DNA from: an uncultured Eubacteriales bacterium
GTDB taxonomy: Bacteria > Bacillota > Clostridia > Christensenellales > Aristaeellaceae
Direction of reading: 5' to 3'
DNA: 50,248 nucleotides
Assembly: GCA_902790525.1 (NCBI GenBank)
Contig: CADASI010000042.1
Location: 1 to 50,248, forward strand
Shown here piece after piece: positions 42,104-49,212 of the stretch. The notes under the pieces are model-generated. The model did no database searches and was not told the DNA's origin. It saw only the letters and a program-made list of their open reading frames with translations. Numbering within the stretch: position 1 is the first letter of the stretch; the number at the start of each line of letters is the position of its first letter. The translations under genes and the position numbers were made by a program.

Positions 42104-42640
42104 TTATTCCGGCTTCCACGCATGGAACGCCTGCTTGTTGATGTCCAGAAGCGCCGCCTTGCGCCCGGAGAAGGTCTTCTCCATGATCTTGTAGATCATC
42201 TCCACGGGCACGACCTTCGAGACCTCGACCACCGCGCCCAGCATGACCACGTTGGCGGTGCGGGCGTTGCCCAGGGACTGGGCGATGCCGCCGGCGTCGA
42301 CGTAGTAGACGTTGATGTCGTCGCGGGTGGCCTTCTGCTCGATCAGCGTCGAGTTGATAAACAGGTTGCCGCCGGGCTTCACCAGCGATTCAAACTTCAA
42401 AAGCGACGGCAGGTTCATGACCACCACGTTGTCCGCCTCGTAGATCAGCGGGCAGGAGACGGGCTTGTCGGTGGAGATGACCACGGTGCAGTTGGCCGTG
42501 CCGCCGCGCATCTCGGGGCCGTAGGACGGAAGCCACGTGGCGTTCATGTCGGCATACATGGCGGCGTAGGTCACCATCTGGCCCATGGTCAGCACGCCCT
42601 GTCCGCCGGAGCCCGCGAAAAACAGTTTATTCGTCGCCAT
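42104..42640 (-). CDS. 2-oxoacid:ferredoxin oxidoreductase gamma subunit
   Basis: A 178-residue gamma-domain protein (VorA/KorC/PorG type) that helps bind CoA. Seen: LFFAGSGGQGVLTMGQM, SYGPEMRGGTANCTVVIS, NLPSLLKFESLVKPGG and NARTANVVMLGAV. ATG 42640 follows the beta gene by one base. Together with delta, alpha and beta genes upstream it forms a four-gene 2-oxoacid oxidoreductase. The substrate could be branched 2-oxoacids (VOR), 2-oxoglutarate (KOR) or pyruvate; the gene order delta-alpha-beta-gamma and the sequence style fit VOR/KOR. Confidence 0.92.
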   Translation of the reverse strand: MATNKLFFAGSGGQGVLTMGQMVTYAAMYADMNATWLPSYGPEMRGGTANCTVVISTDKPVSCPLIYEADNVVVMNLPSLLKFESLVKPGGNLFINSTLIEQKATRDDINVYYVDAGGIAQSLGNARTANVVMLGAVVEVSKVVPVEMIYKIMEKTFSGRKAALLDINKQAFHAWKPE

Positions 42641-42641
42641 A

Positions 42642-43385
42642 TCACTGCACCTCCGGTTCCCTGTACACGCCCAGCGGGTAGTACGGCATCATGTTCTCTT
42701 TAAGCCACTCCATGGCCTTGGGCGGGGTCAGGCCCCAGTTGGTGGGGCAGATGGACAGAAACTCCACAAAGGTGAAGCCCTTGCCCGAAAGCTGCGTCTC
42801 AAAGGCCCTGCGCACGGCCTTCTTGGCCTTGCGGATATTGGCCGGATCGCACAGCGCCACGCGCTCGATGTAGGCGGGGCCGTCCAGCGTGGACAGTATC
42901 TCGCACATCTTCAGCGGCATGCCCGCCTGCTCGCGGGTGCGGCCGTCCACGCAGGTGGTGGAGCGCTGGCCGATCAGCGTGGTGGGGGCCATCTGGCCGC
43001 CGGTCATGCCGTAGATGCAGTTGTTGATGAAGAAGGTGGAGAACTTCTCGCCGCGAGCCGCCGCGTGCATGATCTCGCCCATGCCGATGGAGGCCAGGTC
43101 GCCGTCGCCCTGATAGGTGAACACCACCTTGTCGGGATGCACACGCCGTATGCCGGAGGCCACCGCCGGCGCGCGGCCGTGGGCGGATTCGCACATATCG
43201 ACGTTCATGAACTGGTGGGCCACCACGCTGCAGCCGATGGGGGCCACGCCGATGGTCTTGCCCAGCAGGCCCATCTCGTCCAGCGTCTCCATGATGAGGC
43301 GGTGCGCGACGCCGTGGGTGCAGCCGGGGCAATAGCTGGTGCTGACTTCCGTCATGCCCTTCGTATACTGAAATACAGGTTTCAT
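42642..43385 (-). CDS. 2-oxoacid:ferredoxin oxidoreductase beta (TPP) subunit
   Basis: A 247-residue subunit holding thiamine diphosphate. Seen: STSYCPGCTHGVAHRLI with a CxxC, GHGRAPAVASG-like segment (AHGRAPAVASGI), and the TPP motif YQGDGDLASIGMGEIMHAAARG ... NNCIYGMTGGQ. It carries out decarboxylation of the 2-oxoacid and links to the alpha subunit. The ATG at 43385 overlaps the alpha stop (ATGA, 43382-43385). Confidence 0.92.
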   Translation of the reverse strand: MKPVFQYTKGMTEVSTSYCPGCTHGVAHRLIMETLDEMGLLGKTIGVAPIGCSVVAHQFMNVDMCESAHGRAPAVASGIRRVHPDKVVFTYQGDGDLASIGMGEIMHAAARGEKFSTFFINNCIYGMTGGQMAPTTLIGQRSTTCVDGRTREQAGMPLKMCEILSTLDGPAYIERVALCDPANIRKAKKAVRRAFETQLSGKGFTFVEFLSICPTNWGLTPPKAMEWLKENMMPYYPLGVYREPEVQ

Positions 43386-44458
43386 CGCACTTCCTCCAAT
43401 ATCTTCTTGGTCTTGTCCACGATCTCCAGGGACGTGGGCAGCATGCCGCCGGTGCGGTGGATGAGCTTCACCGGGAAGCGTCCGCGCACGCCCAGCTTCA
43501 CGTCCTCGATCAGCTGGCCCATGCTCAGCTCCGTGGAGATGACCACCTTCGTATTGTCCGTCAGGGCGTCAAAGGCGCCGTAAGGGAAGGGCCAGAGGGT
43601 GATCGGGCGGATCAGGCCGGCCCTGATGCCCTGACTCTGCAGAAGCTCCATGGCCTCGGTGGCCAGGCGGGCCATCGTGCCGAAGGCCACGAAGACCACC
43701 TCGGCGTCCTCGATATCGGTGCACTCGACCCTCTGAAGCTCCCGCTCCATGCGGTCGTACTTCTCAAACAGCTTTTCGACGTGCTGCTCCAGCACCTCGG
43801 GCTGCAGGCGCAGCGACTTCACCACGCTGCGTTCGCCCTTCTCGCTGCCGGAGATGGCCCAGGGCTTGGCCTTCGGGATGTCGGAGGACTTCAGCGGCTC
43901 CTTGGGCTCGGGCAACAGCACGGGCTCCATCATCTGGCCCATCAGGCCGTCCACCAGCACCATCACCGGGTTGCGCCACTCGTTGGCCAGCGCGGGGGCG
44001 TCGTAGAGGATATTGATGGCCTCCTGTATGGACGCCGGGGCGAACACCGGGATGCGGTAGTCGCCGTTGCCGCCGCCGCGGGTGACCTGGAAGTAGTCCG
44101 CCTGCCCGGGCTGTATGGACCCGATGCCGGGGCCGCCGCGGGAGGCGTTGAGCATTGTCAGGGGCACCTCGGCGGAGCACAGGAAGCTCATGCCCTCCTG
44201 CATCAGCGCGATGCCCGGGGAGGACGAGGAGATAAAGCCGTCGCCGCCCGCCGCGCCGCAGCCGTAGGCCATGTTCACCGCGCCCAGCTCGCTCTCGGCC
44301 TGGAGGAATTTGCCGCCCCACTTGGGCAGCTCGCGGCTCATGAACTCGGGGATCTCACTTTGAGGGGTGATCGGATAGCCGAAGTAGTACCGCGCGCCGC
44401 CGCGAATGACGGCCTCGGCAAAGGCCTCGTTGCCCTTCATCAATACCTTTTCAGCCAT
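43382..44458 (-). CDS. 2-oxoacid:ferredoxin oxidoreductase alpha subunit
   Basis: A 358-residue alpha subunit (VorB/KorA style). Seen: KGNEAFAEAVIRGGARYYFGYPITPQSE at the N-terminus, QAESELGAVNMAYGCGAAG, SSSSPGIALMQEG, ASRGGPGIGSIQPGQADYFQ, and the C-terminal domain with VVFVAFGTMARLA and RPITLWPFP. The start ATG 44458 is three bases after the delta gene's stop. The same gene set in other anaerobes oxidises branched 2-oxoacids to acyl-CoA, or works in reverse as a reductive carboxylase. Confidence 0.92.
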   Translation of the reverse strand: MAEKVLMKGNEAFAEAVIRGGARYYFGYPITPQSEIPEFMSRELPKWGGKFLQAESELGAVNMAYGCGAAGGDGFISSSSPGIALMQEGMSFLCSAEVPLTMLNASRGGPGIGSIQPGQADYFQVTRGGGNGDYRIPVFAPASIQEAINILYDAPALANEWRNPVMVLVDGLMGQMMEPVLLPEPKEPLKSSDIPKAKPWAISGSEKGERSVVKSLRLQPEVLEQHVEKLFEKYDRMERELQRVECTDIEDAEVVFVAFGTMARLATEAMELLQSQGIRAGLIRPITLWPFPYGAFDALTDNTKVVISTELSMGQLIEDVKLGVRGRFPVKLIHRTGGMLPTSLEIVDKTKKILEEVR

Positions 44459-44694: not shown

Positions 44695-45411
44695 CTATCT
44701 GTCAAGCCAGCCGGGGCGCATGTAGAGCCCCATAGGCATCAGATGCTCATAGCGTCCCGCGATTTCCGACTCCGGCACGATGCCCGCGGGATAGCAGTCA
44801 CACCATATAAACCGGCCGGTCTCGGCGCACAGGCGCTCGCACAGCCTGTGGCCCTTTTCGATGCATCCCGCGTCGGTCTCCCGAAGCAGATGGGTGTTGT
44901 TGATAAGCCCGTCCACATGAAGGCCCGTGGCGCGCTCGATGGCCTGAAGGTGCGCCATCGCGCCGTCGAGGTCCCGGGTCTCCGGGCGGTTGGCGTTGAT
45001 GACGATCAGCGTCAGCGTCTCCTCTTTGGAGAAGTTGTTGCTGAACTGGTTTAAAACGATGGCCCCGGAATCGTTGCCGCCCAGATCGACGATGGTGCGG
45101 CAGCCCTTGTCCTCCAGGGGCGCGCGCACGTCCGCCGAGAGCTCCGGCAGCTCCGCCGTCACGTCGTGCTGGTAGGCGCTGCCGTAGACGGGTATGCCCG
45201 CCGCCGCGAGCATCGCTTTACGCTCGCGGGACCGGAAATAGGGATTGATGATGTCCAGGTCGCAAAGCCCCATGCGCTCATAGGGCCCGAAGCCGTGCTT
45301 CGCCAGCAGCATCGCGAGGCTCACGCTGAATTCCGTCTTGCCGCTTCCGTAGTGGCCCGTGACCACCGTGACGCGCCGGTCGGGCTCCCGGATGCCGCGA
45401 AAAACCGACAA
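44695..45411 (-). CDS. MinD/ParA-like P-loop ATPase of the oxidoreductase operon
   Basis: A 238-residue SIMIBI-class ATPase. P-loop: VTGHYGSGKTEFSVSLAMLL near residue 15, deviating from the deviant-Walker KGGxGKT by GHYGSGKT. Other marks are LCDLDIINPYFRSRE (switch I region), VDLGGNDSGAIVL and LTLIVINANRPETRD. The start is TTG 45411 with GGGGGAGG upstream; ATG 45435 is upstream of that site and lacks one of its own. It is the first gene of the operon. Its role may be assembly or maturation of the iron-sulfur enzyme or electron-supply control; this is inferred from position. Confidence 0.82.
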   Translation of the reverse strand: MSVFRGIREPDRRVTVVTGHYGSGKTEFSVSLAMLLAKHGFGPYERMGLCDLDIINPYFRSRERKAMLAAAGIPVYGSAYQHDVTAELPELSADVRAPLEDKGCRTIVDLGGNDSGAIVLNQFSNNFSKEETLTLIVINANRPETRDLDGAMAHLQAIERATGLHVDGLINNTHLLRETDAGCIEKGHRLCERLCAETGRFIWCDCYPAGIVPESEIAGRYEHLMPMGLYMRPGWLDR

Positions 45412-45442
45412 ACGGTTCACCTCCCCCGATTTCATATAGGTT

Positions 45443-45586: not shown

Positions 45587-46492
45587 GTGGCGGAGCAGGC
45601 GCGGGAATACCGGGATCGGTTGTTTTGCTTCATATTTGGCAGCGAGGCCCACAAGGAGTGGACGCTGAGCCTGTACAACGCGGTCAACGGCTCCAGCTAC
45701 ACCGATCCCGAGGGGATCACCATCGCCACGCTGTCGCAGGTGGTCTACATGGGCATGCACAACGACGTGGCGTTCCTCATCGCGGATGAGATTAACCTCT
45801 ACGAGCAGCAGTCCACGTTCAACCCCAACATGCCGCTGAGGCTGTTGCAGTACACGGGCAACATCTACGAGAAGCTGATCGTGCTGAACCGCAAGAACAA
45901 GTACGGTCGGACGCTCATCCCCCTGCCCGTGCCCAAGCTGGTGGTGTTCTACAACGGCGCCGCGGAGCAGCCCGACGAGACGACGCTCCACCTCTCCGAC
46001 GCCTTCCCCGCCCACCGGCGCGACGACGCCGACATCGCCGTGCGGGTGCGCATGATCAACATCAACAAGGGCCGCAATCCCGGCATCGCCGAGAGCTGCC
46101 AGCCCCTGGCCGAGTACGCCTGGCTGGTGGACGCCATCCGCCAGAACGAGCGCCACGACGCGCCGGAATCCGCCATTGACGAGGCCCTGGAGCGCATGCC
46201 CGACGATTTCCACATCAAACGTTATCTCGAAGCCCACAAAGCGGAGGTGAAGAAGATGCTGCTGACGGAGTACAACGAGGCTGAGACTCTGGCCATGTTC
46301 AAGGAGGAAGGTCGCGCGGAAGGCCGCGCGGAAGGTCGCGTCGAGGGACGCGCGGAAGGCCGCGCGGAAGCGGAGCAGAAGATGAGCCTGCTGATCTCAA
46401 AGCTGGTGGCCGCCGGGCGCACATCGGAGATCGCGTCCGTCGCCAACGCCGCGCGGCGCGAGCAGCTCTACCGGGAGTTCGGTATGGCGTGA
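45587..46492 (+). CDS. Rpn/PD-(D/E)XK nuclease family protein
   Basis: A 301-residue protein of the Rpn/PDDEXK-type family (often called putative transposase; members promote recA-independent recombination). The core includes KEWTLSLYNAVNGSSY at the N-terminus, MHNDVAFLIADEINLYEQQ with the nuclease-like acidic residues, PLRLLQYTGNIYEKL and LPVPKLVVFYNG. Residues ~238-262 are a charged run of AEGR repeats encoded by a 12-bp repeat, probably helical. The start is GTG 45587 after GGGAGG. It has its own promoter. Multicopy families of this kind are common in gut Clostridia and are thought to spread by DNA exchange. Confidence 0.82.
   Translation: MAEQAREYRDRLFCFIFGSEAHKEWTLSLYNAVNGSSYTDPEGITIATLSQVVYMGMHNDVAFLIADEINLYEQQSTFNPNMPLRLLQYTGNIYEKLIVLNRKNKYGRTLIPLPVPKLVVFYNGAAEQPDETTLHLSDAFPAHRRDDADIAVRVRMININKGRNPGIAESCQPLAEYAWLVDAIRQNERHDAPESAIDEALERMPDDFHIKRYLEAHKAEVKKMLLTEYNEAETLAMFKEEGRAEGRAEGRVEGRAEGRAEAEQKMSLLISKLVAAGRTSEIASVANAARREQLYREFGMA
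46305..46370. repeat. 12-bp tandem repeat in the Rpn gene
   Basis: About five diverged copies of a GAAGGYCGCGCG unit encode Glu-Gly-Arg-Ala/Val repeats. Length change would stay in frame. Confidence 0.75.
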
Positions 46493-46539
46493 TACCAGCT
46501 GTATACCTTTAACGCGCCATGATTTAACAGAATCATCAT

Positions 46540-46568
46540 TTGACAAGGTTACATCCCGGTGATAAAAT
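46540..46568 (+). promoter_or_regulatory. Promoter of the T-box transcript
   Basis: TTGACA (46540-46545), 17-base spacer, TAAAAT (46563-46568). Transcription would start near 46575, just upstream of the T-box fold. Confidence 0.7.
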
Positions 46569-46589
46569 TCTGTCAACTGAATAAGTTCT

Positions 46590-46880
46590 TCAAAGGCAAT
46601 GACGAAGACGGCTGAGCCAAGCCGCTGTACAGAGAGTCGACCGCCTGCTGAAAGGTCGATCACGGATTGCTCACAAGCCCATCCCTTCCGAGCCGGAAGT
46701 CCCAAAGCATCAGGCCGCCAGTCTGGCGCGAGTAGGCGTTTCCCGTGATTGCTGCGTAAAGGCACAGGGCTTGATGGAGCCCGACGAGGGGCACAGCGAT
46801 GTGCAATTTGAGTGGTACCGCGGGTTGTTTCAACCCGTCTCAAGAAAGCGCGACAGGCGTATTTTTGAGGCGGGTTTTTT
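46590..46880 (+). ncRNA. T-box riboswitch
   Basis: A T-box leader. Stem I has the GACGAAGAC stretch (46601-46609) and the AGAGAGTCG (46631-46639) AG-bulge motif, with GTCGACC pairing GGTCGAT. The T-box sequence GAGTGGTACCGCGG is at 46810-46823. The terminator is ACCCGTCTC (46833-46841) paired with GAGGCGGGT (46867-46875) and followed by TTTTTT; the antiterminator uses the same ACCCGTCTC with the T-box strand. The specifier is best read as CUC at 46670-46672 (Leu), followed by AC as in other leucine leaders, but AUU (Ile) at 46666-46668 is possible. It opens transcription into the downstream acyl-CoA synthetase fusion when the cognate tRNA is uncharged. Confidence 0.9.
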
Positions 46881-46941
46881 CGTGCAGGCCATCACCTGGC
46901 GGAGAGCCCCGCAGATCAGATCGAGGGAGGAATGATCACCA

Positions 46942-49212
46942 ATGAACACTTCAGAGATGACCGGCGTCCTGTTTGAGGTCGGCACCCGCATACGCGCCCT
47001 GCGCGAAATCGCGGGCTATTCCGTGGTCTACATGGCCGAGCAGACCGGCCTGGACGTGGAGACGTACATCAAGTACGAGTCCGGCACGGTCGATTTGCCG
47101 TTCACCTTTATCCACAACTGCGCGAAGATCTTCAACGTGGACATCACGGACATCATGGAGGGCCGCAGCGCCAACCTGCGCTCCTACACCGTCACCCGCA
47201 AGGGCAAGGCCATGACCACCGCCCACGAGGAGGGCATCGAGATACGCAACCTGGCCCCCGAGTTCAGCCGCAAGATCGCGGAGCCCTTCTGGGTCACCTA
47301 CAGCTATTCCCGGGAGCTTCAGGACAAGCCCATCCACACCACCACCCACTCCGGCCAGGAGTTTGACCTGATACTCTCCGGCGAGCTGCTGGTGCGCGTG
47401 GGCGACCACGTGGAGCACCTGTACGAGGGCGACAGCATCTACTACAACTCCTCTACTCCCCACGGCATGATCGCCACCGGCGGCAGGGACTGCACCTTCG
47501 TGGCCGTGGTGCTGCCCGGCGCGGACACCGAATCCGAGCAGGTCACCCAGACCGTGATGGCCGTGCGCCCGGTGAAGGAAAAGCTGATCTACGACGAATT
47601 CGTGACGCTGGACGAGGACGACAACGGCCAGCTCAGGCACATCAGCTTCCCCAACTCCGAAAACTTCAACTTCGCCTTCGACATCGTGGACGCCCTGGCG
47701 GAGAAGAAGCCGGACAAGCTGGCCATGCTCTACCTTGACCGCTATCAGAACGAGAAGCGCTTCACCTTCGAGGACATCAGCCGAAAGTCCAGCCGCGCCG
47801 CCAACTACTTCAAGGCCCTGGGCATCAAGAAGGGCGACCGGGTGATGCTGGTGCTTCGGCGCAACTGGCAGTTCTGGGTGGTGATGATGGCGCTTCACAA
47901 GCTGGGCGCCGTCGCCATCCCCGCCACGGACCAGCTGTTGAAGAAGGATTACGAGTACCGCTTCGAGACCGCGGGCGTCAGCGCCATCTGCATCACCGCC
48001 GAGGGCGACGCCGCGTCCCACGCGGAAGAAGCGTTCGAGACCTGCCCCTATGTGACCAAGCGCATCATGTGCGGCGGCGAGCGCGAGGGCTGGCGCAACT
48101 TCGACGAGGAATACCTGCGCTACCGCTCCTCCTTCCCCCGCACCGGGGATTCCGCGAAGGGCAACGACCCCATGGTCATGTTCTTCTCCTCCGGCACCAC
48201 CGGCTATCCCAAGCTGGCCATGCACACCCACCGCTACCCGCTGGGCCACTTCATCACGGCCCACTACTGGCACTGCGTGGAGCCCGACGGCCTGCACCTG
48301 ACCATCTCCGACACCGGCTGGGGCAAGGCGCTGTGGGGCAAGCTGTACGGGCAATGGATGAACGAGGGCGCGGTGTTCACCTACGATTTCGACCGCTTCA
48401 ACGCCCACGACATCCTTCCGATGTTCAAGAAGTACAACATCTCCACCTTCTGCGCGCCGCCCACCATGTACCGCTTCCTGATCCGCGAGGACATCTCGAA
48501 GTACGACCTGTCGAGCATCCACAACGCCTGCACGGCCGGCGAGGCCTTGAACCCCGAGGTGTTCAACATCTTCAAGAAGAACACCGGCCTGTCCATCATG
48601 GAGGCCTTCGGCCAGACCGAGACCACGCTGGTGCTGGGCAACTTCTACGGCATGGTGCCGAAGGTGGGCTCCATGGGCAAGCCCAGCCCGCTGTTCGACG
48701 TGGTGCTGCTGGATGCCGACGGCAACGAGGTCAAGGCCGGCGAGCCCGGCGAGATCTGCATCCGCACCGACCGCGAGGTGCCCTGCGGCCTGTTCGCCGG
48801 CTACTACGGCAACGAGGAGGCCACCCGCGCGGTGTGGCACGACGGCGTGTATCACACCCGCGACATGGCGTGGCGCGACGAGGACGGCTACTTCTGGTAC
48901 GTGAGCCGCACCGACGACGTCATCAAGTCCTCCGGCTACCGCATCGGGCCGTTTGAGATCGAATCGGTCATCATGGAGCTGCCCTACGTGCTGGAGTGCG
49001 GCGTGTCCGCCGCGCCGGACGAGATCCGCGGCCAGGTGGTCAAGGCCTCCGTGGTGCTCACCAAGGGCACCGTGGGCACCGACGCGCTGGCCAAGGAGAT
49101 CCAGAACTACGTCAAGAAGCGCACCGCGCCCTACAAGTACCCCCGCATCGTGGTCTTCCGCGACGAGCTGCCCAAGACCATCAGCGGCAAGATACAGCGA
49201 AACAAGCTGTGA
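46942..49212 (+). CDS. XRE helix-turn-helix + cupin + acyl-CoA synthetase fusion
   Basis: A 756-residue protein with three parts. Residues ~10-65 are an XRE helix-turn-helix (ALREIAGYSVVYMAEQTGLD, TYIKYESGTVDL). Residues ~115-195 are a cupin (HTTTHSGQEFDLILSGELLV, YEGDSIYYNSSTPHGM), as in PuuR-like regulators. Residues ~215-756 are an adenylate-forming acyl-CoA synthetase: MVMFFSSGTTGYPKLAMH (ATP loop), LTISDTGWGKALWGKLYGQW, AFGQTETT, and SRTDDVIKSSGYRIGPFE with KTISGKIQR (catalytic Lys near the end). The middle closely resembles the MACS group, which includes a Methanosarcina enzyme using branched short acids. Start ATG 46942, GGGAGG 12 bases upstream. Controlled by the T-box. Confidence 0.88.
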   Translation: MNTSEMTGVLFEVGTRIRALREIAGYSVVYMAEQTGLDVETYIKYESGTVDLPFTFIHNCAKIFNVDITDIMEGRSANLRSYTVTRKGKAMTTAHEEGIEIRNLAPEFSRKIAEPFWVTYSYSRELQDKPIHTTTHSGQEFDLILSGELLVRVGDHVEHLYEGDSIYYNSSTPHGMIATGGRDCTFVAVVLPGADTESEQVTQTVMAVRPVKEKLIYDEFVTLDEDDNGQLRHISFPNSENFNFAFDIVDALAEKKPDKLAMLYLDRYQNEKRFTFEDISRKSSRAANYFKALGIKKGDRVMLVLRRNWQFWVVMMALHKLGAVAIPATDQLLKKDYEYRFETAGVSAICITAEGDAASHAEEAFETCPYVTKRIMCGGEREGWRNFDEEYLRYRSSFPRTGDSAKGNDPMVMFFSSGTTGYPKLAMHTHRYPLGHFITAHYWHCVEPDGLHLTISDTGWGKALWGKLYGQWMNEGAVFTYDFDRFNAHDILPMFKKYNISTFCAPPTMYRFLIREDISKYDLSSIHNACTAGEALNPEVFNIFKKNTGLSIMEAFGQTETTLVLGNFYGMVPKVGSMGKPSPLFDVVLLDADGNEVKAGEPGEICIRTDREVPCGLFAGYYGNEEATRAVWHDGVYHTRDMAWRDEDGYFWYVSRTDDVIKSSGYRIGPFEIESVIMELPYVLECGVSAAPDEIRGQVVKASVVLTKGTVGTDALAKEIQNYVKKRTAPYKYPRIVVFRDELPKTISGKIQRNKL

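Follow-up and report, generated by a model that had tools for sequence, protein, structure and literature searches.

A T-box leader with an isoleucine specifier precedes an XRE-cupin-acyl-CoA synthetase fusion gene, probably for salvage of 2-methylbutyrate, in an uncultured Eubacteriales bacterium

T-box riboswitches (Rfam family RF00230) are leader RNAs through which uncharged tRNA raises expression of the downstream gene when charged tRNA is scarce. Here we describe such a leader in front of a gene for an acyl-CoA synthetase fused to an XRE-type helix-turn-helix (HTH) domain and a cupin domain, both within a stretch of 50,248 nucleotides (the window; contig CADASI010000042.1, assembly GCA_902790525.1) from an uncultured Eubacteriales bacterium (Clostridia, Christensenellales, Aristaeellaceae). 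For the enzyme, the closest described systems are MacsMa of Methanosarcina acetivorans, whose preferred substrate is 2-methylbutyrate (PMC10455477), and MbcS of Staphylococcus aureus, which supplies lipid synthesis by activating 2-methylbutyrate and isobutyrate (PMC10026030). XRE-cupin regulators control adjacent metabolic genes, presumably in response to precursors of the pathway (PMC7901475). In the rumen, 2-methylbutyrate is converted to isoleucine and isobutyrate to valine (PMC7356843), and isoleucine is formed from 2-methylbutyrate in a methanogen (PMC2812497); in the sections consulted, these two papers name neither the activating gene nor RNA control. We consider it likely, and the best explanation of the sequence, that the window carries an isoleucine-specific T-box unit that salvages 2-methylbutyrate.

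A T-box leader does precede the fusion gene, as an initial annotation made from the sequence alone had proposed. A covariance search (cmscan by E-value over positions 46480-46960) matched RF00230 at 46590-46845 on the forward strand over the full length of the model (1-219 of 219; 63.8 bits, E = 1.2e-13). As in isoleucine-class T-boxes, the leader has an AUC specifier, a UGGN bulge, an antiterminator/terminator pair and a sigma-70-type promoter, all on the forward strand. The promoter (46540-46568; TTGACA-17-TAAAAT, extended by a TG before the second hexamer) shows 11 of 12 consensus matches; a motif scan gave three promoter-like sites in 1.6 kb against 0.5 expected, and by eye a similar promoter precedes the leaders of relatives. 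The T-box, which is the 5' strand of the antiterminator (GAGUGGUACCGCGGGUU, 46810-46826, from sequence and model alignment), contains the bulge UGGU at 46813-46816; in T-boxes such a bulge pairs with the NCCA end of a tRNA, and the letters UGGU would suit one whose discriminator base is A. An intrinsic terminator (46832-46880; arms 46832-46843 and 46865-46876, T-run to 46880) was read from the sequence and a minimum-free-energy fold, and was not listed by a simple terminator scan of the region. The fold of 46575-46880 agrees with the terminator/antiterminator reading (z = -2.52, a stability equalled by 2 of 100 shuffles), and the model alignment contains the AGAGA motif of the distal loop. The initial annotation is confirmed, and its coordinates for the whole unit, 46540-49212, are right; the specifier codon was not named in it.

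The specifier codon, AUC (46681-46683), was read from the Rfam model column and is conserved in relatives. Its register is fixed by the helix below the specifier loop, whose 5' strand GAAG (46604-46607) pairs with CUUC at 46685-46688 in the model alignment; in 40 relatives 100% of the cells of this helix are paired, and 2 of its 4 pairs show compensatory changes. Since the same model column reads UUC ahead of a gene of this genome that was identified by eye as pheS (L003), AUC in the window should specify isoleucine, and we infer that the codon matches the pathway under control. The same genome also has a T-box-like element (43.9 bits) ahead of a gene read by eye as ileS (L012), in a very short leader with little room for Stem I. 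Two features weigh against the window leader as a T-box and set it apart from its described counterparts: its score misses the Rfam gathering cut-off of 93 bits, so that it goes unreported at the Rfam threshold, and the AGUA/GAA motif that the Rfam consensus has in the specifier loop is lost, AGUA being deleted and GAA replaced in the alignment. By score it is tenth among the 12 T-box matches in the whole assembly (E up to 10). In one scan of relatives two fusion T-boxes and one more reached 104.6, 96.9 and 95.7 bits, and others scored 72-92.

Conservation of the leader was examined in relatives. A protein search at E 1e-3 matched 55 of 60 genomes (the own genome included, and distant synthetases counted too), and a scan of GTDB genomes, in which 80 of 587 relatives were kept, supplied a locus set. 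Phylum-wide, 10 of 199 genomes, again including the own one, match at E 1e-200, and a frame without stops across the whole query was found only in the own genome, G251 and G164. Among the matches listed, the best (99% identical) belongs to the metagenome-assembled genome uncultured Clostridiales bacterium RUG11088, a prefix that presumably denotes rumen genomes; other relatives come from sheep, goat, deer and further hosts, in each case from rumen or gut, so that the window most likely stems from a rumen member of the Clostridiales. The T-box core AGTGGTACCGCG occurs within 700 nt upstream of the fusion exactly at 98 of 109 loci and with at most one mismatch at 102 of 109 (the window is one of the 109, and at least four genomes are present twice), while of 2180 mononucleotide-shuffled upstream sequences 50 come within two mismatches of it. 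Homologous fusions thus mostly stand behind T-boxes in other genomes as well, often with shared neighbors, so that neither outcome that would have spoken against the initial annotation (a missing covariance match, or fusions lacking any T-box and with unrelated neighbors) was observed.

The remaining seven loci are three with short leaders (L061, L118, L120), one with 276 nt upstream (L053), one starting 23 nt after another synthetase gene (L105) and two (L038, L082) for which the core was not found in the 700 nt searched. In L061 (from 6859, 0-based; Gly at residue 461, for which see below) the fusion lacks a T-box Stem I, and a 14-codon frame with two Ile codons, MDRIILESFKADTL, lies near a terminator-like hairpin. 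Stem I is also lacking in L118 (from 4919) and L120 (from 195; both 0-based, Ala at 461), where a Val-rich frame begins in a T-box remnant; a leader peptide is doubtful here, the frame being open towards the gene with no stop seen before it.

The structure of the leader is conserved along with its core. Among 40 related leaders (41 parsed, one left out) 95.0% of cells of the T-box structure are paired and 23 of 32 pairs show compensatory changes; none of 500 shuffles reaches either value, and sliding of the partner strand lowers pairing to 33-51%. This structure was named by us and partly derived from the leaders' own consensus, which favors it; an automatic consensus gave compensatory changes at 20 of 30 pairs. 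Chance resemblance to a T-box was, therefore, set aside, in view of the full model length, the covariance E-value, the conserved core and the covarying, paired structure in relatives. A T-box that merely hitchhikes with the gene was set aside because it is conserved and its codon follows the type of the enzyme, as detailed below.

The 756-residue frame behind the leader (46942-49212, forward strand) has the XRE, cupin and synthetase parts initially assigned to it: Pfam places HTH_19 at residues 14-74, HTH_3 at 17-70, Cupin_2 at 134-189, AMP-binding at 252-622 and AMP-binding_C at 672-750. HTH_3 (26.1 bits, cut-off 23) and Cupin_2 (42.7, cut-off 27.2) pass, whereas HTH_19 (29.7, cut-off 30.2) and HTH_31 fall below. 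The closest solved structure by sequence is 3etc (E = 3.4e-185), which we take to be MacsMa; it is archaeal and, unlike the window protein, its solved chain has no XRE-cupin part. Six MacsMa pocket residues, W237, W254, K256, W259, C298 and G351 (those other than W259, and the number 351, are assumed for MacsMa), are the same in all 137 aligned copies. W259 and a Gly-for-Trp replacement of the MacsMa pocket have been described (PMC10455477), and the MacsMa numbering was anchored on YHTGD 431-435 of the same paper through the 3etc alignment. The identity of this pocket with that of MacsMa suggests specificity for 2-methylbutyrate, so that the window protein is a predicted 2-methylbutyryl-CoA synthetase, and the branched-acid activating enzyme of the initial annotation seems probable.

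At many loci of gut and rumen Clostridia two copies of the fusion gene stand in tandem, the first usually behind an Ile (AUC) and the second behind a Val (GUA or GUC) T-box. Specifiers of 155 copies in the 109 loci (loci fetched twice were dropped, and 16 codons were assigned by eye) were AUC in 91, GUA in 44 and GUC in 6, with nine copies without core, four unparsed and one to check; this last, the second copy of L116, reads GUC by eye. When Ile and Val copies were compared column by column, three residues separated them fully: 96 and 187, which lie in the HTH-cupin part, and 461, the only one in the synthetase domain. Residue 461 falls between W254 and K256 of MacsMa, which, like the window protein, has Gly here. 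In the first set Gly occurs in 91 of 91 copies with an Ile T-box and Ala in 46 of 46 with a Val T-box; Ala is also present in four Val copies earlier dropped by a frame artefact and in the second copy of L116. Copies gathered later gave 14 AUC/Gly and 6 GUA/Ala and, subsequently, 2 AUC/Gly and 2 GUC/Ala, one of these GUC cases being a pair of separate genes. For the batch of 14 and 6, the codon was chosen among regular-expression candidates by the CUUC-type stem, three duplicates were dropped, and L161 and L167-L170 gave no N-terminal match; its copies without core have Gly, Gly and Ala. Overall, residue 461 agrees with the specifier in 166 of 166 copies (Gly in 107 of 107 Ile, Ala in 59 of 59 Val), 24 of which were gathered after the rule had been seen; no 100-residue stretch tested in the later copies recurs in the first set. 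On steric grounds, the larger acid would be expected to go with the smaller side chain. Another variable position was observed in motif III, which at residue 640 of the window protein reads YHTRD, not YHTGD: Arg occurs here in 21 of the 91 Ile-type copies, and the 70 others have Gly, as do all 46 Val-type copies.

Several observations argue against residue 461 as a switch that follows the codon. The two groups differ just as completely at positions 96 and 187, as is to be expected if most of the signal stems from two old clades. Ala at 461 also occurs where no T-box core is present, i.e., in five of the six pairs of separate genes (Met being found in the other) and in a synthetase encoded elsewhere in the own genome (contig C65). 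In a tree of 58 rows built without column 461 the specifier changes five times and the residue six times, and independent pairs of specifier and residue number three on well-supported branches and five on all; the three agree, but with three a sign test cannot reach p 0.05. The 58 rows were rebuilt with a better model from a FastTree tree of 150 rows (two of them outgroup) with many open forks. Among copies without a readable T-box, the residue at 461 is mixed.

The neighboring genes indicate what the activated acid may be used for. Genes for 2-oxoisovalerate:ferredoxin oxidoreductase (VOR) often accompany the fusions in relatives, and the window carries them on the reverse strand: a gamma-type subunit (POR domain; 42104-42640; TIGR02175, 90.9 bits, cut-off 81.1), a beta-type subunit (TPP_enzyme_C; 42642-43385; NCBIfam 2-oxoacid beta-subunit matches below cut-off) and a VorB-type subunit, 3-methyl-2-oxobutanoate dehydrogenase (43382-44458; NF005507, 457.8 bits, cut-off 399). 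Next to them, on the same strand, lies the gene of a P-loop-type protein that often adjoins VOR genes (44695-45435; no Pfam or NCBIfam match, its L063 relative matching CbiA/ParA). The common order in relatives is a leuA-like gene with an AP_endonuc_2-synthetase gene, the Ile-T-box fusion, the Val-T-box fusion, the P-loop gene, vorB, vorA, vorC and an aminotransferase gene, the last sometimes before the P-loop gene. In 79 loci of the GTDB scan, VOR genes are in view in 52, the P-loop gene in 53, an aminotransferase in 36 and at least two fusion frames in 47, counts in which many contigs are short, some frames partial and the second copy of L073 broken. The two aminotransferases of relatives that were tested both exceed a branched-chain cut-off (NF009897). 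Of 19 leuA-like genes that could be tested, 14 carry a T-box core, and 11 of these 14 read CUC (Leu); the covariance model matches their T-boxes whole in L127 and L131 and cut by the locus end in L124. With T-boxes at the leuA-like gene and both fusion genes, Leu, Ile and Val codons are thus distributed over parts of one island. In L131 (8101-12032), L093 (2664-6568) and others the leuA-like gene, often behind a Leu T-box, is followed by a gene joining AP_endonuc_2 (TIM-barrel) to an AMP-binding synthetase. The remaining island genes have a T-box core at one aminotransferase only (L061, near 9829), with GUA as candidate codon, in a locus in which a single fusion gene was found.

Part of this neighborhood evidence speaks against a shared pathway. 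The VOR genes of the window are divergent from the fusion gene and showed no T-box in the scan of the assembly, so that co-regulation is not supported; VOR genes are out of view in 27 of the 79 loci and were not seen at 10 of the 21 that have at least 5 kb downstream of the last fusion; and both of the leuA-like proteins put to the test fall short of the leuA cut-offs. A different use of the acyl-CoA, its supply to fatty-acid synthesis for branched-chain membrane lipids as with MbcS, has in its favor that MbcS (NF047394) is the top NCBIfam match of the window protein, a homologous synthetase with the same predicted substrates. However, the 421.3 bits are half of the family cut-off of 850, the match covers only the synthetase part, and MbcS serves lipid synthesis in S. 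aureus, whereas here VOR, aminotransferase and leuA-like genes are neighbors in many relatives and the T-boxes are specific for Ile, Val and Leu. As, moreover, no fatty-acid synthesis enzyme was found among 17 window and neighbor proteins run against Pfam, a role in lipid synthesis seems unlikely.

A role in isoleucine synthesis is also suggested by the rest of the branched-chain amino-acid pathway. No match to ilvC, which encodes ketol-acid reductoisomerase (KARI), was found in the own assembly. Among the 60 genomes, including the own one, ilvC is present in 16, ilvD in 25 (20 over cut-off) and VorB over cut-off in 47, among them the own genome. Outside the genus (32 genomes), VorB occurs in 9 of 9 genomes with the fusion and 11 of 23 without it (p 0.012). 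If the count is extended to every synthetase with 45% identity or more, VorB occurs in 17 of 18 with and 3 of 14 without (p 2.9e-5) and ilvC in 1 of 18 with and 10 of 14 without (p 1.4e-4); the grouping was chosen after the data had been seen, and the tests ignore relatedness. In the own genome ilvD lies behind TRAP-transporter genes: on contig C64 (L137, 6478-11363) an AUC T-box (L001, 118.6 bits) heads DctP and DctM genes, followed by the IlvD gene, an arrangement by which isoleucine may control the uptake of one of its precursors.

On the other side of the balance, the assembly is 94.66% complete; it contains one ilvD over cut-off and, of a class IV aminotransferase, only a fragment was found. 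In the same genus 5 of 28 genomes do possess ilvC. Outside the genus, association with the fusion alone falls short of significance both for ilvC (1 of 9 against 10 of 23, p 0.11) and for ilvD (p 0.10), and becomes significant only with the wider count of synthetases at 45% identity or more. VOR, finally, can run oxidatively, its enzymes being reversible. If it did so here, the cluster would degrade branched-chain amino acids and the synthetase would recycle the acids, and rumen cultures do deaminate branched-chain amino acids too (PMC7356843). Such a catabolic role appears very improbable, since a T-box would induce the gene when charged tRNA is scarce, the wrong time for degradation, and ilvC occurs in only 1 of the 18 synthetase-bearing genomes outside the genus.

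Most likely, therefore, the enzyme is a step of amino-acid biosynthesis, given the VOR neighbors, the aminotransferase of relatives, the Ile, Val and Leu specifiers and the undetected ilvC. The initial annotation had considered an acyl-CoA synthetase an odd target for a T-box; this view is not upheld, because an enzyme that feeds isoleucine synthesis via VOR would bring tRNA-Ile control under ordinary amino-acid logic, applied to a class of targets for which we found no report. Its suggestion that starvation for an amino acid switches the gene on agrees with the Ile T-box and its AUC codon. According to the anatomy of the leader, the AUC specifier would pair with uncharged tRNA-Ile, whose CCA end would bind the UGGU bulge; the tRNA would in this way stabilize the antiterminator and allow the polymerase to enter the gene. 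The enzyme would then activate exogenous 2-methylbutyrate, a volatile acid of the rumen, to 2-methylbutyryl-CoA. As judged from gene content, the neighboring VOR complex could carboxylate this reductively, with ferredoxin, to 2-oxo-3-methylvalerate, from which an aminotransferase would yield isoleucine. In relatives the tandem copy with Ala461 and a Val T-box would handle isobutyrate likewise, leading to valine. This scheme resembles the reductive carboxylation of branched volatile acids in the rumen, in which an acid also becomes an amino acid by carboxylation and amination.

The XRE-cupin head is the weakest step of this scheme. Like the Pseudomonas regulators ErfA, PsdR and PauR and Vibrio cholerae 1y9q it has an HTH followed by a cupin and possibly a similar predicted fold, but those proteins are stand-alone regulators. 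In an AlphaFold model of residues 1-235 (31 rows; mean pLDDT 86.9, pTM 0.56) a fold search ranked 1y9q first (E = 8e-14), yet with a TM score of 0.35 and a root-mean-square deviation of 15.8; the domains are, therefore, placed differently or poorly fixed. A PDB sequence search with the HTH-cupin part returned only 3h8u (E = 0.057). The head is most likely a local regulator absorbed into the enzyme: as XRE-cupin regulators act on neighboring genes and are thought to sense precursors, it may read the acid or the acyl-CoA and act on its own or the vor promoter. The substrate sensing and DNA binding suggested in the initial annotation would likewise draw on resemblance of domains and fold. Alternatively, the T-box is real and the head is only a scaffold or allosteric domain that has lost DNA binding, a reading to which we give appreciable weight without preferring it. 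By eye, no firm operator candidate was found in the window and 14 same-genus intergenic regions, and XRE-cupin and synthetase also adjoin as separate genes, in this genome and elsewhere, so that fusion could have altered the role. However, HTH positions such as R16, R21 and E46 and the cupin residues H136, E140 and H174 are invariant in 31 aligned rows, 1y9q leads the fold search, and Ile and Val copies differ at HTH or cupin positions such as 45, 53, 59, 116 and 120, all of which speaks against such a loss.

Of the separate-gene pairs, that of the own genome (C65, L123, 9247-11512) has Ala at the 461 position, and no T-box was seen directly upstream; its synthetase is possibly an isobutyrate enzyme. 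Another unfused pair (L181, contig C19 of G164) also has Ala and a GUC T-box candidate upstream, and T-box control may thus occur without fusion.

In titles and abstracts searched we found no report of T-box control of such acyl-CoA synthetases, although an earlier mention is possible; in the main text of two T-box surveys (PMC2494555, PMC3766115) a term search found "acyl-CoA" and "CoA" zero times. T-box control would extend to acyl-CoA synthetases, and the genes described here are candidates for the activating step in rumen synthesis of isoleucine and valine from 2-methylbutyrate and isobutyrate. Since an RNA codon together with a single residue of the pocket predicts the substrate of each paralogue, the pathway can be mapped and tested gene by gene, and it would offer a clear-cut example of an RNA and an enzyme whose specificities change together. 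It is conceivable, but at present rather doubtful, that the island combines three T-boxes (Leu, Ile and Val), trigger-enzyme synthetases that bind DNA and a codon co-evolving with a Gly/Ala461 switch. If so, the head of the synthetase would sense the supply of acid and the T-box the demand for the amino acid, and the RNA sequence would predict the substrate.

Between the VOR genes and the T-box, at 45587-46492 of the window, lies a further frame, with an EGRAEGR repeat tail and no Pfam or NCBIfam match; similar frames are present in five of the scanned loci.

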